Virus record (IMG/VR): IMGVR_UViG_3300035156_000227
Coordinates: 1-44,937 of that record
DNA: 44,937 nucleotides
DNA from: a virus
Reading direction: 5' to 3' (one strand)
Shown: piece after piece, positions 1-44,868 of the stretch
Numbering within the stretch: position 1 is the first letter of the stretch
Layout of the letters: the number at the start of each line of letters is the position of its first letter
The notes under the pieces: generated by a model
Databases searched by the model: none
What the model was told of the DNA's origin: nothing
What the model saw: only the letters and a program-made list of their open reading frames with translations
Program-made: the position numbers and the translations under genes

Positions 1-73
1 GGCCGTTTTGAGCTAAGCAATCTTGCAACTTCGACCCCGTCGGCACACGCCTGTGCTAGAATCCTGCCGCGCT
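1..73 (+). promoter_or_regulatory. Host flank with tRNA-Leu promoter region
   Basis: Chromosomal sequence upstream of the interrupted tRNA-Leu gene. A TAGAAT at 57-62 sits at the right distance to be a -10 box for the tRNA starting at 74; no convincing -35 box is seen. No protein gene is visible in this short flank. Confidence 0.4.
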
Positions 74-112
74 GCCCCGATGGTGAAACTGGTAGACACC
101 CGGGACTTAAAA
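74..112 (+). tRNA. 5' half of host tRNA-Leu(UAA), cut by the prophage
   Basis: Reads as acceptor strand GCCCCGA, D-arm, anticodon stem CGGGA and loop CTTAAAA, then stops being tRNA at 113. The 3' half lies at 44811-44868. Joining the halves through the shared GGACTTAAAA gives a complete tRNA-Leu with anticodon UAA, a CGGGA/TCCCG anticodon stem, a long variable arm, a GCCCCGA/TCGGGGC acceptor stem and an encoded CCA. The sequence after 112 does not supply a 3' half, so the gene is disrupted in the lysogen. Confidence 0.92.
103..112 (+). other. attL core (GGACTTAAAA)
   Basis: Ten bases identical to 44811-44820. Flanking bases differ on both sides, so the core is exactly 10 bp. It covers the 3' part of the anticodon stem and the whole anticodon loop, the sub-location used by one group of tyrosine integrases. 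Here the identity is too short to restore the gene. Confidence 0.9.
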
Positions 113-218
113 GACTCAGACTATAGCCCGCCTTCGTTTTTTCCAAAGCCCTGAAACCCGCATGGATACTGAGTCTCAGGAGATTCCGTTACTTCACTGG
201 TAGAGTTAGTGTAAAGTC

Positions 219-239
219 CATGTGCAAAGTTTGCACACG
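219..239 (+). repeat. Inverted pair of integrase arm-type sites
   Basis: TTTGCACATG on the minus strand (219-228) and TTTGCACACG on the plus strand (230-239) face each other across one base. The same 10-mer recurs near the other end of the element. The pair lies just upstream of a TATACT (243-248), the likely -10 of the integrase gene, so Int binding here could also repress int. The arm-site role is inferred from repetition at both ends. Confidence 0.6.
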
Positions 240-282
240 CGTTATACTAGCTAAATCAACGAAAAATCAGGAAATTTTCCTT

Positions 283-1635
283 ATGGCAACAGTCAGCGAG
301 CTCCCTTCCGGTAAGTTCCGGGTGCAGATTCGGCGGAAAGGTTTGGCTAACCTTGACAAGCTCTTTGACACCCGGGAAGAAGCAAAAAGCTGGGGTATCG
401 CTCGGGAAGCTGAGCTCGTGTCAGCGCGGAGCCAGTCGGTAGCCCGACCTAACGCCGGCGTGACCTTCCGCGCCGCGGTTGAGCGCTACCTGGCAGGTCC
501 AAAATTCAAAGACAAAGCGGCAGGCACGCAGGCCCGGGAACGCAGCGCCTCGGTGCGGCCGCTCGAGTACTTTGGGGAGTACGCTCTCTCGGTCATCGAC
601 GGCGCGATGGTGCAGGACTATATAGATATGCGTTGCGGCGAGAGGGTGAAGCACAAAAACGGCAAGCGACTGGACAAAGTCGTGTCGGCGAACACCGTTC
701 GGCTCGAGAAAGCGTTCCTGTCGGCCGTCTTCAAGTTCTCTAAGCGCAGGAACCTGCTGCAGTCGAACATCATGCGCGACTCGTTCGAGCTTCCGACATG
801 CCACCCGAAGGAAGGCCGCATTACGCTTGAGCAGCAGATGGCGGCCTACAACTGCGCACTGGAGATGAGCGTTGCGAAAAACGCGAACCCTAGCTTGCTG
901 CCGTGGGTCTACTGCGTTTTTGAGACAGGCACCCGACCAGGCGAAGCCGCCAAGATTGAGCTTGCCTGGGTTAACCTGAAAGAACGCAAAGTCTCCATCC
1001 CGCGCATCGGTCAGAAAAAGCGCACGGCTCGCGTCGTGCTGCTCGGTGAGGACTTAGCTGAGATGCTACAAGAGTGCGTGAAGCGTGCCGAAGAGGCCGG
1101 GTCTAAGTTTTTGTTCTTCTCCCGCAAGAACGAGCCGCTCGAAAAAGACTCGAAGGGTAAGCCAATCCGTAGGCGCCGTGATGAGGACGAGATAGCAAGC
1201 CGCCCCTGCGTGCCGTTCTCGTACTACAACGCCTGGCGTAACCTGACAAAGGCCGCGGGAATACCGAAAGGGATTAATCCTCACCTTGTACGTCACGAAT
1301 TTATCTGTCGCCTGTTCGAGGAAACGGACCTGAACGACAGCCAGATTGCGATGCTGGTTGGGGACGTGAATGTGTTATCGCTTGAGCCGTACAAACACCT
1401 GCGTGCGGAACGTCTGCGCGACCGACAGGACGAGCACCTGGACAAGACCCGTGCTGCCCTAGCGGAGCTGCAGGACATGCGCCAGCGCCGGATGGATGCG
1501 CATTTGCGCGCGGTGCGTGAGCGTGCTCAAGCTGAGCAAGATGAGGTAGGAGACACTTCGACCCCGATGGAGCGCATCCATGCCAGGCGGCTTGCTGAGG
1601 GGTTGATTGTGAAAGTCGCCTCGACTGAGAAGTAA
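283..1635 (+). CDS. int: Tyrosine recombinase (phage integrase)
   Basis: A 450-residue site-specific recombinase that would integrate and excise the phage at tRNA-Leu(UAA). The catalytic residues are visible: Arg218 in TGTRPGE, a probable Lys246, His334 and Arg337 in HLVRH, and nucleophile Tyr370 in EPYKH. The second His/Trp position appears to be Asp361. The N-terminal 60 residues look like an arm-binding domain and residues 60-160 like a SAM-like core-binding domain. The charged tail after 380 is longer than in most relatives. The start at 283 is chosen because AGGAA lies 9 bp upstream; the in-frame ATG at 220 falls inside arm-site repeats and upstream of the likely promoter. The gene ends 3 bp from the 3' end of the convergent phage tRNA-Leu. 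Confidence 0.93.
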   Translation: MATVSELPSGKFRVQIRRKGLANLDKLFDTREEAKSWGIAREAELVSARSQSVARPNAGVTFRAAVERYLAGPKFKDKAAGTQARERSASVRPLEYFGEYALSVIDGAMVQDYIDMRCGERVKHKNGKRLDKVVSANTVRLEKAFLSAVFKFSKRRNLLQSNIMRDSFELPTCHPKEGRITLEQQMAAYNCALEMSVAKNANPSLLPWVYCVFETGTRPGEAAKIELAWVNLKERKVSIPRIGQKKRTARVVLLGEDLAEMLQECVKRAEEAGSKFLFFSRKNEPLEKDSKGKPIRRRRDEDEIASRPCVPFSYYNAWRNLTKAAGIPKGINPHLVRHEFICRLFEETDLNDSQIAMLVGDVNVLSLEPYKHLRAERLRDRQDEHLDKTRAALAELQDMRQRRMDAHLRAVRERAQAEQDEVGDTSTPMERIHARRLAEGLIVKVASTEK

Positions 1636-1638
1636 TCG

Positions 1639-1723
1639 TGGTGCGGGCAGCCGGAATCGAACCGGCACGCCTCACGGCGGCAGATTTTAAGTCTGATGCG
1701 TCTACCAATTTCGCCATGCCCGC
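1639..1723 (-). tRNA. Phage tRNA-Leu(UAA), likely replacement for the split host gene
   Basis: An 85-nt tRNA on the minus strand with acceptor GCGGGCA/TGCCCGC, anticodon loop CTTAAAA (anticodon UAA), a long class II variable arm, T-arm GCCGG-TTCGATT-CCGGC and encoded CCA. One mismatch lies at the base of the anticodon stem (U opposite C). The acceptor stem and variable arm differ from the host gene, so it is not a copy made by integration. It has the same isotype and anticodon as the host gene destroyed by integration, which suggests compensation (inference). A TACAAT at 1739-1734 on the minus strand is a likely -10. Confidence 0.93.
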
Positions 1724-1733
1724 GCCGGCGGGG

Positions 1734-1739
1734 ATTGTA
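1734..1739 (-). promoter_or_regulatory. Probable -10 box of phage tRNA-Leu
   Basis: TACAAT read on the minus strand, 10 bp before the mature 5' end of the tRNA. The -35 region is weak. This gives the tRNA its own transcription from the lysogen, independent of int. Confidence 0.45.
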
Positions 1740-2100
1740 CTACGTGCGGCAGCTGGAGTGTTAGTAGCTGAGCATTAGTCGAGCGCCCAAGCCCCCCAAT
1801 CTTGGCCAACCGGGGTTAACTGCAGTTGGCCAGGTTGCGCGGGTCAGGCACTGCTTCGCCCGGACCACTCTTACATAAAACCACTGCCTCGACACTCCTG
1901 CCGGCGCCCTGGTTCTCTCGAACTACTCCTACTCAATAGTGCTGCGCTCTGCCCCGACGCGGAGGGGACCCTTCGGGGAGGCGGAGCCTCATCGTGACGA
2001 GCCCGAAAAGCGGAGCTGGCCGCCAAAAAGCGCCGACGCGGATTAAGAACGGATTACGGCGACTGGAGAGCCACTGTCCATGCGGGTTTCGAGAGGTTGC
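1740..2100. other. Non-coding stretch between tRNA-Leu and rep, with nested palindromes
   Basis: No convincing gene is seen. TGGCCAAC (1803-1810) and GTTGGCCA (1825-1832) form a perfect 8-bp inverted repeat, and AACTGCAGTT (1817-1826) is a palindrome overlapping its right arm. These could be operator or origin elements. Short open frames on both strands lack good ribosome sites and are not called. Confidence 0.4.
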
Positions 2101-2219
2101 GGTGGGCCGCCGACGGAGAAAGGTGGGCCGGGAACGGATGGGAGGGCCCCTTGATTTGTGGGGTAAGCGTCGAAAAAGGTGGGCCGTCGACGGATGACAA
2201 TTTGGTGGGCCAGCGACGG
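2101..2219 (+). repeat. Four iteron-like direct repeats upstream of rep
   Basis: Copies of GGTGGGCCNNCGACGG start at 2101, 2178 and 2204, with a variant (GGTGGGCCGGGAACGG) at 2122. All are on the same strand and end about 65 bp before the TrfA-like initiator gene, followed by an AT-richer stretch. TrfA-family proteins bind clustered direct repeats at their origins, so these are candidate iterons. Spacing (21, 56, 26) is irregular, which weakens the case. They could instead be operators controlling rep. Confidence 0.55.
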
Positions 2220-2262
2220 ATAGAACGCTTTTTTGAGCGATATAACTTTTTCTCGCTAGACA
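2219..2262 (+). promoter_or_regulatory. Candidate rep promoter, GATAGAACGC class
   Basis: GATAGAACGC followed by six T, then a TATAAC (2241-2246) and a TAGACA (2257-2262), either of which could be the -10. The GATAGAACGC-T6 block recurs at 14433, and related copies lie at 12889 and, inverted, at 11890. No consensus -35 is seen. The distance from the block to TAGACA is 38 bp, the same as in the TTGCGCG cassettes. Confidence 0.45.
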
Positions 2263-2285
2263 ACTCACACACACAAGGAGTTGTC

Positions 2286-3200
2286 ATGAACCGCAAATCA
2301 AATTTCACCGACGCAGAACGCGTTGCCGCCCTTAGCACCTACGATGGGGACGAGCGCACCGCCCCGGCCGCGTGGGACCTGGACGATACCGTCTATGCGC
2401 CTGACATGCACAAAACGACGTACGCCATGAATCCGGCCATTCTGTGCTGCGCGCTGTTCGGCGTCGGCAAAGGCACGGCAGTTATCGGCGCCGACGGAAA
2501 GAAGAAGCACATTCGCGAGTACATCAAGCGCACCTTCGCGACAACAAACGGTGCAAGCATTGAGTATCGCGGCGACGAGCTGTGCCAGGACGACCTGACC
2601 GTCCTTCTCGGCCTGCTGAACCAGCACGCCGGCTTTGCTACCAGCCTCGCCCTCGAGTTTTCCCCGTACACTTTCTGCTCCCAAATCGGCTGGTCTGACA
2701 GCGACTACAACGTTACTCGCCTGCAAGAGTGCCTGCTGCGCCTGCGCGGAGCCCTACTCATTGTGCGGACCGCCAAGAAGGAAGGCGATGCCGCAGAAAG
2801 CAAGCTGGCGCGCGCAATCGGCACCGGCTGGACGCTACAATTTTTGGCTCACTTCGCGTGGGAAGGCCTCTCGCGCTGGTCCGTGCAGCTTGACCCGCGC
2901 ATCAGCCTGCTGTTCCCTGACGGCTTCAAGCCAACGTACCTCATCGCCGCGAAGCGTAAGGCTCTCACTGAAGGGCTCCAGACCTGGCTGTACGGGTATG
3001 TCGAAGCCAACACGTGCACCTATGCAGTGCCCCTCGAGACCCTGCAAAAAGCCTGCGGCTCCACTGCTCCGGCGAAGGAGTTTGCCCGCCAGGTGCGCGA
3101 AGCTTTGCCAAAGTTGGCAGCAGTCGGCGCCGTCCGCCTAACGTCGAACGTCAAGAACGGCAAGGTAGCGATTTTCAAGGTCTCGTCCGCCCGCGCTTAA
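2286..3200 (+). CDS. TrfA-like replication initiator protein
   Basis: A 304-residue protein resembling the C-terminal two thirds of the plasmid RK2 initiator TrfA. Shared features in order are an inhibitor/charged N-terminus, FSPYTFCSQIGWS (RK2 has a similar FTFYELCQDLGWS), RLQECLLRLRGAL, then DPRISLLF, RKALTEGLQTWLYGY, YAVPLETLQKACGS and a final REALPKLAAVGAV. Such proteins have two winged-helix domains, bind iterons, open the origin and load host helicase. It lacks the long variable N-terminus of RK2 TrfA. The start at 2286 has AAGGAG upstream. Four direct repeats lie directly upstream. This suggests theta-type replication from a plasmid-like origin, either during lytic growth or as an episome (inference). 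Confidence 0.8.
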   Translation: MNRKSNFTDAERVAALSTYDGDERTAPAAWDLDDTVYAPDMHKTTYAMNPAILCCALFGVGKGTAVIGADGKKKHIREYIKRTFATTNGASIEYRGDELCQDDLTVLLGLLNQHAGFATSLALEFSPYTFCSQIGWSDSDYNVTRLQECLLRLRGALLIVRTAKKEGDAAESKLARAIGTGWTLQFLAHFAWEGLSRWSVQLDPRISLLFPDGFKPTYLIAAKRKALTEGLQTWLYGYVEANTCTYAVPLETLQKACGSTAPAKEFARQVREALPKLAAVGAVRLTSNVKNGKVAIFKVSSARA

Positions 3201-3217
3201 CCCGGCCCCTGGTAATG

Positions 3218-3244
3218 AAGGCTCCTTTCGAGGGGCCTTTTTTT
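3218..3244 (+). terminator. Terminator after rep
   Basis: AAGGCTCC/GGGGCCTT stem with a short loop, followed by a run of T. A TTGCGCG cassette begins six bases later. Confidence 0.8.
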
Positions 3245-3249
3245 CATTG

Positions 3250-3293
3250 TTGCGCGTCCTTGCGCGTGGTTTTCGTCGGTCGCTCCCTATACG
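3250..3293 (+). promoter_or_regulatory. TTGCGCG promoter cassette A
   Basis: Tandem TTGCGCGTCC / TTGCGCGTGG (period 10), then TTTTCGTC and a -10-like TATACG at 3288-3293, 38 bp from the first T of the box. The -35 position lies inside the repeat and is not TTGACA-like, pointing to an activator- or repressor-bound promoter. A GAGC-loop-GCTC hairpin (3298-3310) would sit at the mRNA 5' end. Drives the terminase paralogue. Confidence 0.65.
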
Positions 3294-3337
3294 ACTCGAG
3301 CACTTAGCTCGCACACACAACAACAAGGGAGCCCTAC

Positions 3338-4510
3338 ATGAACGCACCAGCAGCAAACACCGCAACCTTCGTCAAAACCCTAACAAAGGTCGACAACGCA
3401 AGGCTATATCGCCTGACCCGGCCTGTTGTTATCTACGACGGCGGATTCCGAGGCACTACGGACTACGTCGTCGTTAGTAAGTGGGTCCTGCCCGCCGTAT
3501 CGTTCGCCGGCCAGCCCGTCATCCCGGCAAAGGACCACGTTTCCGTTTGGGCTTCCGACGAGGCAGGCTGCCTGTTCAACGCGTCGCCCCTTGCTCGACT
3601 GACTGGCTCCGAACACACTCACGAGGACGCGCTGGCAGCAATCGGCTATGCCACTGTTGTCGAATCTTGGGACACGTCCACTGACGGTACGTCCGTCGCC
3701 CGTTTTGAGGTGCGTGACGGCGTTCTTCATGTCCTCGGCTTCGACTACACGCCGCCTGCCCCCCTGCCGCAGCCTAGCTTCATGGCGTACTGCCAAGCCA
3801 TTTACCCTGACCGCGACTGGCCGCAACACTTCGAGATATGCTCCGAAGCTGTCGAAGCGATGCTCGCAGGGGAGTCGACCCGCGTGCAGACCAATGCACC
3901 GCCGCAGCATGGGACCACGACGTTGGCGCTGCTGAGCCTTGCTTACGCAATCGGCTGTAACCCAAGCAACCGGTACCTTTATGCGACATACAGTCAGGGG
4001 CTGGCTGAGACCCTGCGCGACCTGGTCATCCGTATTCTAACTAGCCGGGCGCACCAAGACCTGTTTCCTTCTACGGCCCTTGTCCACATCTCGGCGAACG
4101 AACTAATGACGAACAAAGGTGGGCACATCGTCTTTGCGAATCCCGGCTTCGGTGGCACTGGCTGTTCTTTCGACGGAGTCGTCATTGACGACCCGTTCAG
4201 CGATTTAGACCAGCGCCTGGATGAGGACACCCTCGCCGGGTTCGACTCATTCTTTGGCGGCGCAGTGCTCCCGCACATCACACCCGCGACTTGGGTACAC
4301 CTGCTGAACGCCCGCCTCGGCTCAGACTGGAAGTATGCAAATGGAGAGTGGGAGTGCTTAGACTTTCCGGCGCTGTCCGGGGAAGAGCTGGCACTGTGGC
4401 CTGAGCACCAAAATCGTAAGCTGCTGCGTGCAACAAGGGACGCTATACCTCCGTACTTCTGGGAGCTGTACTTCCAGCAGAACGTCGACGGCTTCAAACA
4501 GTATATGTGA
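3338..4510 (+). CDS. Terminase ATPase-domain paralogue, Walker A lysine lost, no nuclease
   Basis: 390 residues. From about 147 to the end it aligns collinearly with the ATPase half of this phage's own large terminase (20371-21861): PPQHGTTT (188-195) versus PPQHGKTR, ATYSQ versus ATYAQ, GFGGTG versus AGGTG, VVIDD (281-285) versus IILDD, WVHLLNARL versus WIHIINTRW, and LALWPE versus EALWPE. It stops at QQNVDG, where the terminase has QQRPVP just before its nuclease domain. The Walker A lysine is threonine (T193), while the Walker B acidic pair is kept. The first ~145 residues are a domain I do not recognise. It is transcribed alone from its own cassette, far from the packaging genes. Roles could include regulating packaging, inhibiting another phage's terminase, or ATP-independent DNA binding (all inference). 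RBS GGGAG precedes the start. Confidence 0.8.
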   Translation: MNAPAANTATFVKTLTKVDNARLYRLTRPVVIYDGGFRGTTDYVVVSKWVLPAVSFAGQPVIPAKDHVSVWASDEAGCLFNASPLARLTGSEHTHEDALAAIGYATVVESWDTSTDGTSVARFEVRDGVLHVLGFDYTPPAPLPQPSFMAYCQAIYPDRDWPQHFEICSEAVEAMLAGESTRVQTNAPPQHGTTTLALLSLAYAIGCNPSNRYLYATYSQGLAETLRDLVIRILTSRAHQDLFPSTALVHISANELMTNKGGHIVFANPGFGGTGCSFDGVVIDDPFSDLDQRLDEDTLAGFDSFFGGAVLPHITPATWVHLLNARLGSDWKYANGEWECLDFPALSGEELALWPEHQNRKLLRATRDAIPPYFWELYFQQNVDGFKQYM

Positions 4511-4513
4511 GCT

Positions 4514-4533
4514 AAGCCCCTTCGGGGGCTTTT
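4514..4533 (+). terminator. Terminator after the terminase paralogue
   Basis: AAGCCCC-TTCG-GGGGCTTTT hairpin with T tract. The next promoter cassette begins 8 bases later. Confidence 0.85.
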
Positions 4534-4541
4534 CCTTTTTG

Positions 4542-4585
4542 TTGCGCGTCCCTGCGCGTGGTTTTCGTCTTCCTGTGCCTACACC
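4542..4585 (+). promoter_or_regulatory. TTGCGCG promoter cassette B
   Basis: TTGCGCGTCC / CTGCGCGTGG then TTTTCGTC; -10-like TACACC at 4580-4585, again 38 bp from the box start. Drives the three-gene unit 4623-5603. Confidence 0.6.
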
Positions 4586-4622
4586 AAGCATACCGACAAC
4601 AACAAAAAAACGGATGCTCCCA

Positions 4623-5051
4623 ATGAACACTGCACTCAAAGACTTTTTCGCCGCCGTAGCGCGTGCGCGGGCTAGTCCCCCGCCTGTCTGGCCGACCGGT
4701 GCGAAGCTGGCGCAGCTGGTCGAGCTGGCCGCCCGGTTCTGGTTCACCTGGACTGAGAACGCTGACGGCACCCGGACAATCGCCGGCCCGACCATCGCGA
4801 CGCCTATCACCCTGGACGAGCGGACCGCAACTATCCGCCTGCTGAACGAGGTGTGCTCCGCAATGCTGGCGGAGGACTGCACGAACTTGATTTACAAGCT
4901 CGAGCAGCCGCTGTACGCCCCGTTCGTCGCTCCGCGCCGTTTCATCCAGCGCCGTATCACCGTATTCCGTGCAGCACACCGGGACTACGAAGCAGTTTTC
5001 AAAGCACTCACACAACAAAAAGACGAAGGAGACTCAAATGTTCATTCCTAA
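4623..5051 (+). CDS. Hypothetical early protein
   Basis: 142 residues, not recognised. The N-terminal half has a proline patch (SPPPVWPTG) and an aromatic stretch (ARFWFTWTENADG). The C-terminal half is helical and basic (RRFIQRRITVFRAAHRDYE). No signal peptide or membrane segment is seen. The start at 4623 follows a weak CGGA site, like the other cassette-driven genes. Its end overlaps the next gene by 14 bp, so the two are translationally coupled. First gene of a three-gene unit between a promoter cassette and a terminator. Confidence 0.7.
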   Translation: MNTALKDFFAAVARARASPPPVWPTGAKLAQLVELAARFWFTWTENADGTRTIAGPTIATPITLDERTATIRLLNEVCSAMLAEDCTNLIYKLEQPLYAPFVAPRRFIQRRITVFRAAHRDYEAVFKALTQQKDEGDSNVHS

Positions 5052-5430
5052 CGGTAGCGCCCCGGAAAACCATCTGGACTTGATTCAACGCTCGGCCCGC
5101 CGCATTCACCAGCTCGCCCTGGCCAACCCAACCCGGGGTTACCTGGCAGGCTCCTCATTCGAGCGTGCTTGCTCAGACAGCAAGCCGGCCGCGGTGATGT
5201 ACGACATTCTGTTCGGCGACGAGCTGAGCGGATACAAAGCGGCAGGTCTGACGGATGCAGAGGCGAAGACTGCTTGGACCTTGGTGCGCGCTTCAGGGGT
5301 CGACCAGCACATGCGTATCAGCGCGGTCGGCCAGGTGGCGCTGCGTGACGCGGTGGTCGAGTCGGCACGGCACATCGTGCACATCCTCAAGGACCAGGAC
5401 GCACTGGAGCTGGCGCTGGAGGCCGTATGA
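5038..5430 (+). CDS. Hypothetical early protein
   Basis: 130 residues, mostly helical, no recognised motif. GAAGGAG lies upstream of the ATG, inside the end of the preceding gene. The stop overlaps the start of the next small gene (ATGA). The region LTDAEAKTAWTLVRASG looks like an ordinary amphipathic helix pair. Nothing points to an enzymatic role; likely a small host-takeover or regulatory protein, by position only. Confidence 0.7.
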   Translation: MFIPNGSAPENHLDLIQRSARRIHQLALANPTRGYLAGSSFERACSDSKPAAVMYDILFGDELSGYKAAGLTDAEAKTAWTLVRASGVDQHMRISAVGQVALRDAVVESARHIVHILKDQDALELALEAV

Positions 5431-5603
5431 ACTACTTCGACGAGCAAGACAGGTACTTCGCGATGGACGAGCTGAACCGGCTGATGCATGCAGACACCGA
5501 GGTGCATACCGATGACGACCTAGGGTGGCCAGAGGGAGTTGTGGCAGCTCTCGAGGAGCATGCGTTCCCTGACCGGCCCGAAGGCAGCTTTGCCGATATT
5601 TAA
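5427..5603 (+). CDS. Small acidic protein (58 aa)
   Basis: Starts in an ATGA overlap with the stop of the preceding gene and ends just before a strong terminator, which supports it as the third gene of the unit. The 58-residue product is strongly acidic (many Asp/Glu, few Lys/Arg) with no Cys and no hydrophobic segment. Acidic early phage proteins are often DNA mimics or inhibitors, but nothing here proves that. Confidence 0.6.
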   Translation: MNYFDEQDRYFAMDELNRLMHADTEVHTDDDLGWPEGVVAALEEHAFPDRPEGSFADI

Positions 5604-5614
5604 CTGAGTACCAA

Positions 5615-5636
5615 CCCCGCCCAGTGCGGGGTTTTT
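5615..5636 (+). terminator. Terminator after the 58-aa gene
   Basis: CCCCGC-CCAGT-GCGGGG stem-loop followed by five T; the next cassette begins 8 bases later. Confidence 0.85.
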
Positions 5637-5643
5637 CATTCTA

Positions 5644-5687
5644 TTGCGCATCTCTGCGCGTGGTTTTTGCCCGGTGGTCCCTAGACA
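5644..5687 (+). promoter_or_regulatory. TTGCGCG promoter cassette C
   Basis: TTGCGCATCT / CTGCGCGTGG then TTTTTGC; -10-like TAGACA at 5682-5687, 38 bp from box start. GAGC-AGCC-GCTC hairpin just downstream in the leader. Drives the RNA ligase. Confidence 0.6.
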
Positions 5688-5723
5688 GGTGACGAGCAGC
5701 CGCTCGCACACACGGGAGCCACA

Positions 5724-6749
5724 ATGAACGAAACCAAACCCCCGCGATTTTATCGCTTCGGGAGCATCGAACAATTCAAAAGCACGGTCAAGGCTGTACG
5801 CGACCACAGCAACTTCCACGCTACTCCTTTGCCTACTCTGACCTTTACGGGTAGTGTCAAGCTGCACGGCACCAATGCAGCAATCGTGTATCACGCCAGG
5901 AACGGCGCCATCACCTGCCAAAGCCGTGAGCGAATCATTACGCCGGAGTCGGACAACGCTGGCTTCGCGCAGTTTGCGGACGAGCACAAAGACGAACTGC
6001 GGGAGTGGCTGACGCCTCTTTCCTTTACTTTCCTTGGCGACGCAATCGCAGTTTTCGGAGAGTGGGCCGGGCCAAAGGTGCAGCCAGGCGTCGCCGTCTC
6101 TGACCTGAGCAAGAAACAGTTTTTCGTATTCGACATTAGGGTGCTCACCGGCGACGACAGCGTGAAGCTCACCCCAGCACAGATAAAGCAGATTGTTGCG
6201 GACGCAGCACTGCCTGATGTGCATAGCATCTACCAGTTCCCAACCTGGTCCGTCGCAGTCGACTTTAATCAGCCCGAGGCGGTGCAGAATCGCCTTGTGG
6301 AGCTCACAATGGCCGTCGAAGCGGAGTGCCCAGTCGCAAAGACCTTCGGCATCTCAGGCATCGGCGAAGGTATCGTCTGGCGCTGCGATGACAACCAGGG
6401 CATCCAAGGCCTGACCTTCAAGGTGAAAGGTGCGAAGCACAGCACGAGCAAGGTCCGTGTGCTGAACGAGATTGCTGCTGTCGATGTGGCGAGGCTTGAG
6501 AGCGTCAATCAGTTCCTCGACCAGGTTGTTAGTGCAAATCGACTGTCACAAGGGCTCGCAAAGCTTGAGGAGCTGGGGCTCCCGCTCGACGCAACTTCCA
6601 CGGGTGCCTATATCAAGTGGGTCGCCGGCGATGTGAAAGCCGAGGAGGCCCTCACTATCGAGGCAAGTGGCTTCGCCATTGGAGAGATTCTCTACCGCAC
6701 CAGTCAGCGCGCCAAAGCTCACTACCTGACAGTCCTTACTTCTGCCTAG
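5724..6749 (+). CDS. RNA ligase, T4 Rnl2-like
   Basis: 341 residues with the ordered motifs of ATP-dependent RNA ligases of the Rnl2 type. Motif I is VKLHGTN with nucleotidyl-acceptor Lys46, followed by a motif Ia-like SRER (67-70), GEWAGP (112-117), motif III FFVFDI (133-138), motif IV GEGIVWR (214-220) and motif V FKVKG (232-236). The enzyme is adenylated by ATP and seals 3'-OH/5'-phosphate RNA ends. The C-terminal ~100 residues are a helical accessory domain. The gene is alone between a cassette promoter and a terminator; RBS GGGAG. No polynucleotide kinase/phosphatase is seen in the window, so ends needing healing would depend on the host. A role in repairing cleaved tRNA fits the phage's tRNA genes but is inference. 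Confidence 0.88.
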   Translation: MNETKPPRFYRFGSIEQFKSTVKAVRDHSNFHATPLPTLTFTGSVKLHGTNAAIVYHARNGAITCQSRERIITPESDNAGFAQFADEHKDELREWLTPLSFTFLGDAIAVFGEWAGPKVQPGVAVSDLSKKQFFVFDIRVLTGDDSVKLTPAQIKQIVADAALPDVHSIYQFPTWSVAVDFNQPEAVQNRLVELTMAVEAECPVAKTFGISGIGEGIVWRCDDNQGIQGLTFKVKGAKHSTSKVRVLNEIAAVDVARLESVNQFLDQVVSANRLSQGLAKLEELGLPLDATSTGAYIKWVAGDVKAEEALTIEASGFAIGEILYRTSQRAKAHYLTVLTSA

Positions 6750-15539: not shown

Positions 15540-16260
15540 ACACCTAGAGAGCGGCGCACCAGGTAACTGGCAGAGCCTGGCAACAGTTGCCCGGGCAGTA
15601 CCTGGCAACAGCGGGCCCGAGTGCCTGGCAGCAGTTGCCCGACGTCGGAGACGCCGGACAACAGCACACGGGGCAGAGCCTGGCACCAGCAGCCGTAGCC
15701 CCTGGCACCAGCGCCCGGGCGCAATCATTGGCAGCAGCTAACCCTTTGATAACAGCGGAGCTATTGGCAGCAAGCCGCCGGCGCTTGATAGCAGCGCAGC
15801 TATTGAGAGCAGCGGAGCGACCAGGCAACAGAAGCCGGCGCGGCAGTTGACCAGGATGCAGCGGGCAAGGCAGCACCAGCACACCAGACCGGCGCAGCAT
15901 TTGCACACTTTGGCAAGCATTCGACGCGTTTGCACACTTTGGCAGGCATGCGCGGAACATTGGGAGCAATAAGGCGGAGCACCAGGGCGCGGAGCTAATC
16001 GGACAGCCGAACAGGCGGACAGCGTGACAAGCGGGCGCCGCACTCCAGGACAGCGAAGCAGGCGCCGGCCTGGTAACGCATCCGAGCAGAGCGAGCGCCA
16101 GGCACTCAAGCAAGACAAGCGGGCGCCGCACTCAAGCACAGCGCACCAGCGCGCGGAGCTTGCCGGCGCACTGTTGCCAGGTACTCGAGCAAGCCAAGCA
16201 GGCGCCGACCTGGCAAGCCAAGCCGGACAGGATGCAGCCGCCGAGCGCAGCGAGGGGGCG
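15540..16260. repeat. T-poor, repeat-rich non-coding region
   Basis: No gene is supported for about 1 kb (15438-16460). The plus strand has very little T (roughly 4-6 per 60 bases over long stretches). CCTGGCANCAG recurs at 15576, 15601, 15624, 15679 and 15701, about every 22-25 bp. TTGCACACTTTGGCARGCAT occurs at 15901 and 15929. A perfect 20-base repeat, GACAAGCGGGCGCCGCACTC, is at 16026 and 16114. The open frames here are short, overlapping and lack ribosome sites. Possible roles include an origin or packaging site, a structural RNA, or decayed sequence; none is shown. Confidence 0.55.
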
Positions 16261-17066: not shown

Positions 17067-17258
17067 CTCTTCAGCCCTAAAGCCCTAACGCAAGCGAGGG
17101 GTCAGTCCAGCGTGCGATTTTGAAGCTTCTTGTTGTGTGATGTGCCTTGTCCAGCCACCGGCGGTCTAAAACCACGCGCAGGGACACGCAACAATGAAAA
17201 ACTGACGCCTATGAGCTAAAATGCCCCAAGGCAATTTCACGCACAAACAGGACAGCAG
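17067..17258. other. Intergenic, no gene seen
   Basis: Short gap with one weak hairpin (CCCTAACGCAAGCGAGGGG at about 17086-17100) that may act as a weak terminator of the HEPN-like gene. No promoter of the repeated classes. Confidence 0.3.
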
Positions 17259-18074: not shown

Positions 18075-18150
18075 TCCGCAATAGCTCAGCTGGCAGAGCA
18101 GCGCCCTGTTAAGGCGCGGGTCCTACGTTCGAACCGTAGTTGCGGAGCCA
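18075..18150 (+). tRNA. tRNA-Asn(GUU)
   Basis: Acceptor TCCGCAA/TTGCGGA, D-arm AGCTC...GAGC, anticodon loop CTGTTAA, normal T-arm with TTCGAAC, encoded CCA. Fully canonical. Confidence 0.93.
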
Positions 18151-18151
18151 A

Positions 18152-18226
18152 GCCTCGTTAGCTCAGTGGTAGAGCAATCCCCTGTCCAGGGATACGTCGT
18201 CGGTTCGATTCCGGCACGGGGCGCCA
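18152..18226 (+). tRNA. tRNA-Asp(GUC)
   Basis: One base after tRNA-Asn. Acceptor GCCTCGT/ACGGGGC (one G-U), D-arm GCTC...GAGC, anticodon stem ATCCC/GGGAT with loop CTGTCCA, T-arm GTCGG-TTCGATT-CCGGC, encoded CCA. Confidence 0.92.
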
Positions 18227-18308
18227 AGTTTTCGGGAGTTGCGGGTTGGAATCCCGCAAAAGGGAGCAGTCCCTTGATGGAGTAATCGCTAACTCGCCTG
18301 ACCCTTAT

Positions 18309-18385
18309 ATACCGTTAGACAAGTGGTTAAGTCATCACCCTTTCAAGGTGACATTCGCTCGGTTCGATTCCGGCACGGTATGCCA
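18309..18385 (+). tRNA. tRNA-Glu(UUC)
   Basis: Acceptor ATACCGT/ACGGTAT, D-stem GAC/GTC, anticodon stem TCACC/GGTGA with loop CTTTCAA, encoded CCA. The T-stem is slightly imperfect (C opposite C at its base plus one U-G). Starts 82 nt after tRNA-Asp; the spacer has a few hairpins but no tRNA. Possibly somewhat degraded but probably functional. Confidence 0.85.
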
Positions 18386-44654: not shown

Positions 44655-44675
44655 CGTGTGCAAATCGTGTGCACA
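44655..44675 (-). repeat. Integrase arm-type sites, right arm, pair 1
   Basis: CGTGTGCAAA at 44655-44664 is TTTGCACACG on the minus strand, an exact match to the left-arm site at 230-239. CGTGTGCACA at 44666-44675 is a second, near match with the same orientation. Confidence 0.55.
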
Positions 44676-44726
44676 TGGACTGAGGAGTCGACAGGCCCTC
44701 CTGCGCCCAGAGTAGGTTAGGCTTTT

Positions 44727-44759
44727 CGTGTGCACTAAAAACAAACAAATTTGCACACG
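44727..44759. repeat. Integrase arm-type sites, right arm, pair 2
   Basis: CGTGTGCACT (44727-44736, minus, partial match) and TTTGCACACG (44750-44759, plus, exact match). They lie 50-85 bp from the attR core, the usual distance of arm sites. Confidence 0.55.
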
Positions 44760-44810: not shown

Positions 44811-44820
44811 GGACTTAAAA
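44811..44820 (+). other. attR core (GGACTTAAAA)
   Basis: Identical to attL core 103-112. Marks the right end of the prophage; excision between the cores would rebuild the host tRNA-Leu. Confidence 0.9.
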
Positions 44821-44868
44821 TCCCGTGCTCGCGAGGGCGTGCCGGTTCGATTCCGGCTCGGGGCACCA
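44811..44868 (+). tRNA. 3' half of host tRNA-Leu(UAA)
   Basis: Anticodon loop and stem (TCCCG), long variable arm, T-arm GCCGG-TTCGATT-CCGGC, acceptor TCGGGGC, A and CCA. No 5' half precedes it; the phage sequence to the left (44760-44810) is AT-rich. A start from the phage side could not give a functional tRNA. Confidence 0.92.

Follow-up and report, generated by a model that had tools for sequence, protein, structure and literature searches.

How can a temperate phage cut through a bacterial tRNA gene that probably has no second copy and still leave a living lysogen behind? The question is raised by a virus record of 44,937 bases (here called the window, by which we mean the whole stretch of DNA that was analysed) with ~70 bp of host sequence at either end. 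At its left end, the 5′ half of a host tRNA-Leu(UAA) gene (attL; 74–112, plus strand) ends in the anticodon loop, with a promoter-like host stretch, TGTGCTAGAAT, lying just upstream. At its right end, attR (44811–44868, plus strand) consists of the 10-bp core GGACTTAAAA followed by the 3′ half of the host gene, CCA included. We consider it highly likely that the window holds the prophage of a temperate, siphovirus-like virus whose host is a Massilia-like betaproteobacterium and which relies on tRNA-dependent lysogeny, a strategy defined for actinobacteriophages by Guerrero-Bustamante & Hatfull in 2024 (PMC10865867), whose plasmid and mutant experiments showed that lysogeny requires the phage tRNA. 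The integrase would recombine the host tRNA-Leu(UAA) gene, at its anticodon loop, with the 10-bp core of attP, and a phage-borne tRNA-Leu(UAA) with an upstream region of its own, presumably expressed and charged, would take over the lost function. By analogy with the mycobacteriophage experiments, lysogens would be viable solely because the substitute arrives together with the integrase.

The split gene and its attachment core

Within the 44,937 bases of the window, the core GGACTTAAAA has exactly two copies (103–112, plus strand, within attL, and 44811–44820) and is absent from the opposite strand over the same length. It covers the anticodon loop and three bases of the 5′ stem strand, in agreement with an earlier note on this DNA that had placed it in the loop and part of the stem. 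When the two flanks are joined, ARAGORN calls one perfect 87-nt tRNA-Leu(taa) with no base missing, and it calls no tRNA in attL, attR or attP; the gene is thus split without repair, as the note had also maintained. The coordinates given at that time did locate a split gene, but its 3′ half (44811–44868) falls outside their range, and the host gene begins at 74.

Canonical tRNA-targeting integration uses the same kind of target and the same integrase class, but there a long common core over the 3′ half restores the gene, leaving one junction intact. Here, attP and attB have just 10 bp in common and nothing is restored: because the core is short, both junctions are left without a working tRNA. 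What we find, an attB that overlaps a host tRNA gene and a short core (10 bp here; 11 bp in the second prophage described below, that of genome G161), corresponds instead to tRNA-dependent lysogeny.

The host and its tRNA-Leu(UAA) gene

Unoccupied sites with an intact tRNA gene, which the earlier note had proposed to look for in relatives, do exist. Window positions 17–112 are 91.7% identical to the intact host locus L005 and 90.6% to L003, and the 3′ half of the host gene is 98.3% identical to L005 over 59 bp. An exact-pattern scan of genome_contigs, for which the upstream stretch and the tRNA gene were combined with two variable-arm bases left open, matched one record, Massilia sp. Leaf139 (Oxalobacteraceae). 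Judging from these sequences, the host is a Massilia-like betaproteobacterium.

Is the split gene the only one of its kind? The tRNA-Leu(UAA) 5′-half pattern has exactly one match in 53 of the 62 genomes of the genus and two matches in none of the 62, which supports, for the relatives of the host, the expectation of a single-copy gene. Of the other nine genomes, six have one variant tRNA-Leu(UAA) and three yielded none with these patterns, which miss unusual variants, e.g., of the GGTAGCC type. A looser pattern finds matches in 329 of the 392 genomes of the family, with two matches in G161 and G279 only, and in both of these the pair consists of a split gene plus a substitute. A tRNA-Leu(CAA) pattern meant as a control matched 0/62 genomes and hence provided no usable control. 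Going by copy counts in relatives, the split gene is probably the only UUA-reading gene of the host, and the counts from genus and family together make a second tRNA-Leu(UAA) copy in the window's own host unlikely.

Two main chromosomal types of tRNA-Leu(UAA) can be told apart in the genus: type A (36 of the 53 pattern matches), to which the gene split here belongs, and type B (17 of the 53), the kind carried by the window phage. Types A and B are 67–78% identical to each other, and identity within a type is at least 84%. Additional, divergent tRNA-Leu(UAA) bodies are seen at six loci in the genus (L121, L122, L123, L124, L126 and L127), some of which have GGTAGCC in the D arm, and L126 has the type-A element upstream of a tRNA body of another kind.

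The integrase and the phage-borne tRNA

The tyrosine integrase of the phage is encoded on the plus strand at 220–1635 (471 aa from the listed start) and matches PF00589 at 58.4 bits and phrog_1 at E 2.7e-37; the start MATVSELPSG, at position 283, is the one that it has in common with its relative in G161. Candidate arm-type sites that would serve this integrase lie on the left side at 221–237 (TGTGCAAA / TTTGCACA) and on the right side at 44656–44757 (GTGTGCAAA, TTTGCACA), with no strand assigned to either group, and motifs resembling them also flank the core in G161.

Only 3 nt separate the integrase stop from the end of a complete tRNA-Leu(UAA) gene that encodes CCA (1639–1723, minus strand) and is convergent, i.e., tail to tail, with the integrase. 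The earlier description of a complete tRNA with the same anticodon and another body, three bases from the integrase stop, is accurate: the body is of type B, that of the split gene of type A. Its view that the target is replaced rather than having its end restored is supported as well, given that no tRNA is formed at the junctions and a complete one stands at 1639–1723.

Does the substitute work? In 8 of the 17 type-B Massilia genomes, the sole tRNA-Leu(UAA) detected has all 85 of its 85 bases in common with the phage gene, and because of this identity the substitute very probably does. These genomes appear to depend on this very molecule for reading UUA. Its upstream region (1724–1773, minus strand) contains a TACAAT element common to type-B Massilia chromosomes, and the cassette as a whole, upstream region included (1634–1773), is 95.7% identical to L041 over 140 bp. 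A scan for sigma-70 consensus promoters ahead of the phage tRNA came back empty, so that the argument for its expression is this conservation with type-B chromosomes.

Elsewhere in the window, a 61-nt intergenic repeat (TTGTTGCGCGTCC..TGCGCGTG..CCTAYAC) is present in seven direct copies (at 3232, 4524, 5626, 6764, 7613, 9167 and 43100) and one inverted copy (at 17159); these repeats may represent promoters or operators used in common. At 15569–16216, short direct repeats, GGCAGAGCCTGGCAACAG among them, are clustered.

A second prophage of the same design

A search for relatives with the same pair of integrase and tRNA-Leu genes, likewise suggested in the earlier note, turned up one, in G161, whose integrase is the only close relative of the present one to be found (52% identity over 458 columns). 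In this genome, too, the host tRNA-Leu(UAA) gene is interrupted; the 11-bp core, GGACTTAAAAT, has its copies ~53 kb apart on one contig. The prophage between them (~53 kb) carries a complete, convergent tRNA-Leu(UAA) that directly abuts the int ORF. The body of this tRNA is unlike that of the window phage and unlike that of the G161 host's own gene; the pattern of its anticodon stem, AAGAGAC, recurs in chromosomal genes of several further genomes from the family. Pattern searches found no further tRNA-Leu(UAA) in G161. One integrase lineage is thus accompanied by different tRNAs in the same place in two phages, which suggests that the pairing of integrase and tRNA is itself selected. In neither phage do target and substitute have the same anticodon stem, which may keep the integrase off the phage's own tRNA gene.

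How widespread is this integrase? Matches at E ≤ 1e-10 were obtained in 25 of the 392 family genomes, all of them except G161 being ~28–38% identical, and among these 392 genomes none besides G161 has a relative of at least 52% identity. At E ≤ 1e-30, 0 of 399 genomes of the order matched, in a search that ran without a positive control and shows little. Integrase relatives were found neither in genome_contigs nor in viral_contigs, the second viral_contigs search using short, weak patterns. A tblastn search of 50,697 phage records returned three distant matches (24.5–26.2% identity), and megablast against phage genomes retrieved no relative of the window phage, tRNA matches aside. Both the attR pattern and the phage-tRNA pattern had matches in 0 viral contigs.

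Alternative readings of the locus

Could the broken host gene be redundant and the phage tRNA-Leu(UAA) an ordinary cargo that serves translation in the lytic cycle, two facts with no relation to each other? The phage does have three more tRNA genes, Asn(gtt), Asp(gtc) and Glu(ttc), at 18075–18385, and the copy numbers are those of relatives of the host rather than of the host itself. We nevertheless regard this explanation as improbable. The tRNA abutting the integrase has the anticodon of the split gene, and this is so in two phages with different tRNA bodies; one tRNA-Leu(UAA) per genome is detected in the clade; and UUA accounts for 11 of 742 leucine codons in 21 chosen phage ORFs, a rarity that speaks against codon supply for lytic growth. 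An assembly artefact, that is, a chimera of phage and tRNA-containing contigs, might come to mind for a viral record flanked at either end by just ~70 bp of host DNA. Yet the halves join seamlessly and match intact Massilia-like loci (3′ 98%, 5′ 91–92%), and the same anatomy is met again in a bacterial genome, G161, all of which makes an artefact hardly credible.

If the locus reflects tRNA-dependent lysogeny, as we favour, how firmly would the host be bound to its prophage? The earlier note had raised the possibility of addiction. This idea stands for imprecise loss, which would be penalised, but not for exact excision, which gives the host its gene back; only imprecise loss would therefore carry a cost.

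Relation to known systems

The strategy outlined in the earlier note is not new: it was published in 2024 as tRNA-dependent lysogeny (PMC10865867). The mechanism proposed was right and had already been described, outside Actinobacteria too (PMC10865867 and an excerpt of PMC11476347). Fionnbharth, LeBron and Mollymur, phages of Mycobacterium and Gordonia, resemble the window phage in having a tyrosine integrase, an attB within a tRNA gene and a short core (8–17 bp, compared with 10 bp here); as in the window phage, neither attL nor attR holds a tRNA, and the phage gene is of the same isotype with another body (PMC10865867). Unlike in these phages, the host here is betaproteobacterial, the target is tRNA-Leu(UAA), the tRNA gene lies tail to tail with int, and the evidence comes from sequence. 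The nearest published layout we found is that of mycobacteriophage Gaia (Cluster X), which also targets a leucine tRNA gene and also has a tRNA gene downstream of int; its core is 8 bp long and its target is tRNA-Leu(CAA), i.e., both the isoacceptor and the host phylum differ from those of the window phage (PMC10865867).

Outside the actinobacteriophages, Sinorhizobium meliloti prophages like Mesorhizobium phage Lo5R7ANS are described, in an excerpt of PMC11476347, as inactivating the host tRNA-Leu(UAG) gene, which is replaced by a prophage gene resembling the tRNA-Leu of other Alphaproteobacteria. The case differs from the present one in its bacterial class, the Alphaproteobacteria, and in the isoacceptor; an excerpt of PMC12429752 refers to this tRNA-Leu(UAG) work. 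For prophage Lj965 of Lactobacillus johnsonii, in the wording of its citation in PMC10865867, a cognate tRNA was reported and the target is not restored, as here, whereas the host is a Firmicute. In the open-access papers searched we found no case of betaproteobacterial tRNA-dependent lysogeny and none of a Massilia prophage with a tRNA-Leu gene. The window phage thus brings a known strategy into a new group, the Betaproteobacteria.

Broken tRNA genes in other genomes and elements

Are there remnants of similar events, or other elements that behave alike? In G245 (locus L104, 8800–9400), a tRNA-Leu half broken at the same loop position comes after a cluster of Gly-Gly-Cys tRNA genes, and the order Cys-Leu(UAA) is also seen in related genomes (L074, L076). 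At 264 bp beyond this half, a tRNA-Leu(UAA) lies in convergent orientation, and its anticodon loop holds a group I intron (RF00028, 58.7 bits); the intron would also destroy the integrase target. In the 19 kb of L104 examined, no integrase related to the two phage integrases was found. A weaker case is G114 (L106), with a degenerate tRNA-Leu 5′ half and an intron-bearing tRNA-Leu(UAA) whose intron, at 25.1 bits, scores below the Rfam gathering score. In G279 (L186, ~190–6200), a 5.9-kb element that ends in inverted repeats, ACTTTCATGTT / AACATGAAAGT, splits the host tRNA-Leu(UAA) gene beside the anticodon stem and carries a tRNA-Leu(UAA) of its own. It contains three long ORFs in a row, two with recombinase similarity that is weak, the best Pfam match (22.3 bits) being below the cut-off and NCBIfam matches far below theirs. 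On sequence evidence, these loci suggest that several kinds of element use the substitute-tRNA trick.

Among 183 viral loci listed, match counts give at least 154 non-intact tRNA-Leu(UAA) 5′ halves. We do not count these as split host genes because many look like attP sites with the first half of a tRNA-Leu, as in cyanophages: the attP of P-SSP7, for example, corresponds over a long core to the first half of tRNA-Leu (according to an excerpt of PMC8776855). A tRNA-Leu of any kind is called in the same locus for six of the 154 halves listed. At L242, L292, L353 and L337, the 5′ half is accompanied, on its own strand and starting at most ~100 nt away, by an intact tRNA-Leu(UAA) that differs from it, and these four may be further cases. 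L358 and L365 were set aside because the tRNA-Leu(AAG) called there, of intron type, is doubtful. None of the viral loci listed has the convergent arrangement seen in the window.

Exchange of tRNA types in Massilia chromosomes

What becomes of the two tRNA types in bacteria related to the host? From the 53 matching genus genomes we took all 17 type-B loci and 20 of the 36 type-A loci, plus L008 for G001. On an rplJ-rpoB tree of 29 of 30 chosen Massilia genomes (12 type B, 17 type A; G056 had no match and was left out), the type label needs at least six changes, five of which are forced by well-supported branches, and type B as one clade is rejected (p-AU 1.4e-6). Control tRNAs near rpoB hardly vary: tRNA-Trp has three variants in 29 genomes, with at most four mismatches, tRNA-Thr two variants in 17 genomes and tRNA-Gly three variants in five. 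Types A and B both lie upstream of the same gene, here called X (ParB-like, as named by reading its sequence), and on a tree of the X region they are intermixed as well (37 loci; L003 and L005 were left out as short, L054 and L055 as having no X). At this single position of the chromosome, types A and B have been swapped five times or more.

We tentatively propose, at close to an even chance, that integration of this kind acts as a ratchet, in which the phage tRNA becomes the sole working copy, the prophage decays and the substitute stays, and that this underlies both the five or more Massilia exchanges and the arrangement in G245. The single tRNA-Leu(UAA) gene of Massilia would then have been swapped, mostly with reversal of its orientation. 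A new gene that lacks the old anticodon stem, or that bears an intron in its anticodon loop, may protect the chromosome from the same integrase.

Alternatively, the phage may have borrowed its type-B gene from Massilia, with the alternation of A and B due to loss from an ancestral pair or to ordinary gene transfer rather than to prophages; we see this as a real possibility, if somewhat short of probable. It would fit the absence of remnants, as BLAST with the left and right ends of the phage found no type-A half and no trace of int in any of the 17 type-B loci, the stretch before X having also been read by eye in 12 of the 17 and by BLAST in the rest. Orientation speaks both ways. Type-B genes are co-oriented with X in 16 of 17 loci and type-A genes in 7 of 19 (Fisher p 0.0004, with kinship ignored), and just this type-B orientation is what one would expect of the tRNA left by a phage of the present design after insertion into a type-A gene that diverges from X. 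However, the type-B gene of L044 is divergent, and in several type-A loci the orientation has reversed while the type stayed the same. What argues further against borrowing is that no genome with both types was detected by pattern among the 62 of the genus, that a single type-B clade is rejected and the X region intermixes the types too, and that L104 looks like the decay intermediate to be expected, in another genome. The fossil locus L104 and the type switches in Massilia thus fit the retention of a substitute tRNA, without proving it.

Together, tRNA-dependent lysogeny offers an explanation for the lone tRNA gene found beside the integrase in some phages. If substitutes are retained as proposed, phage-borne tRNAs may become permanent after the virus is gone, and a conserved, single-copy and probably essential bacterial RNA gene would have a testable route by which a foreign gene could take its place while the cell stays viable.
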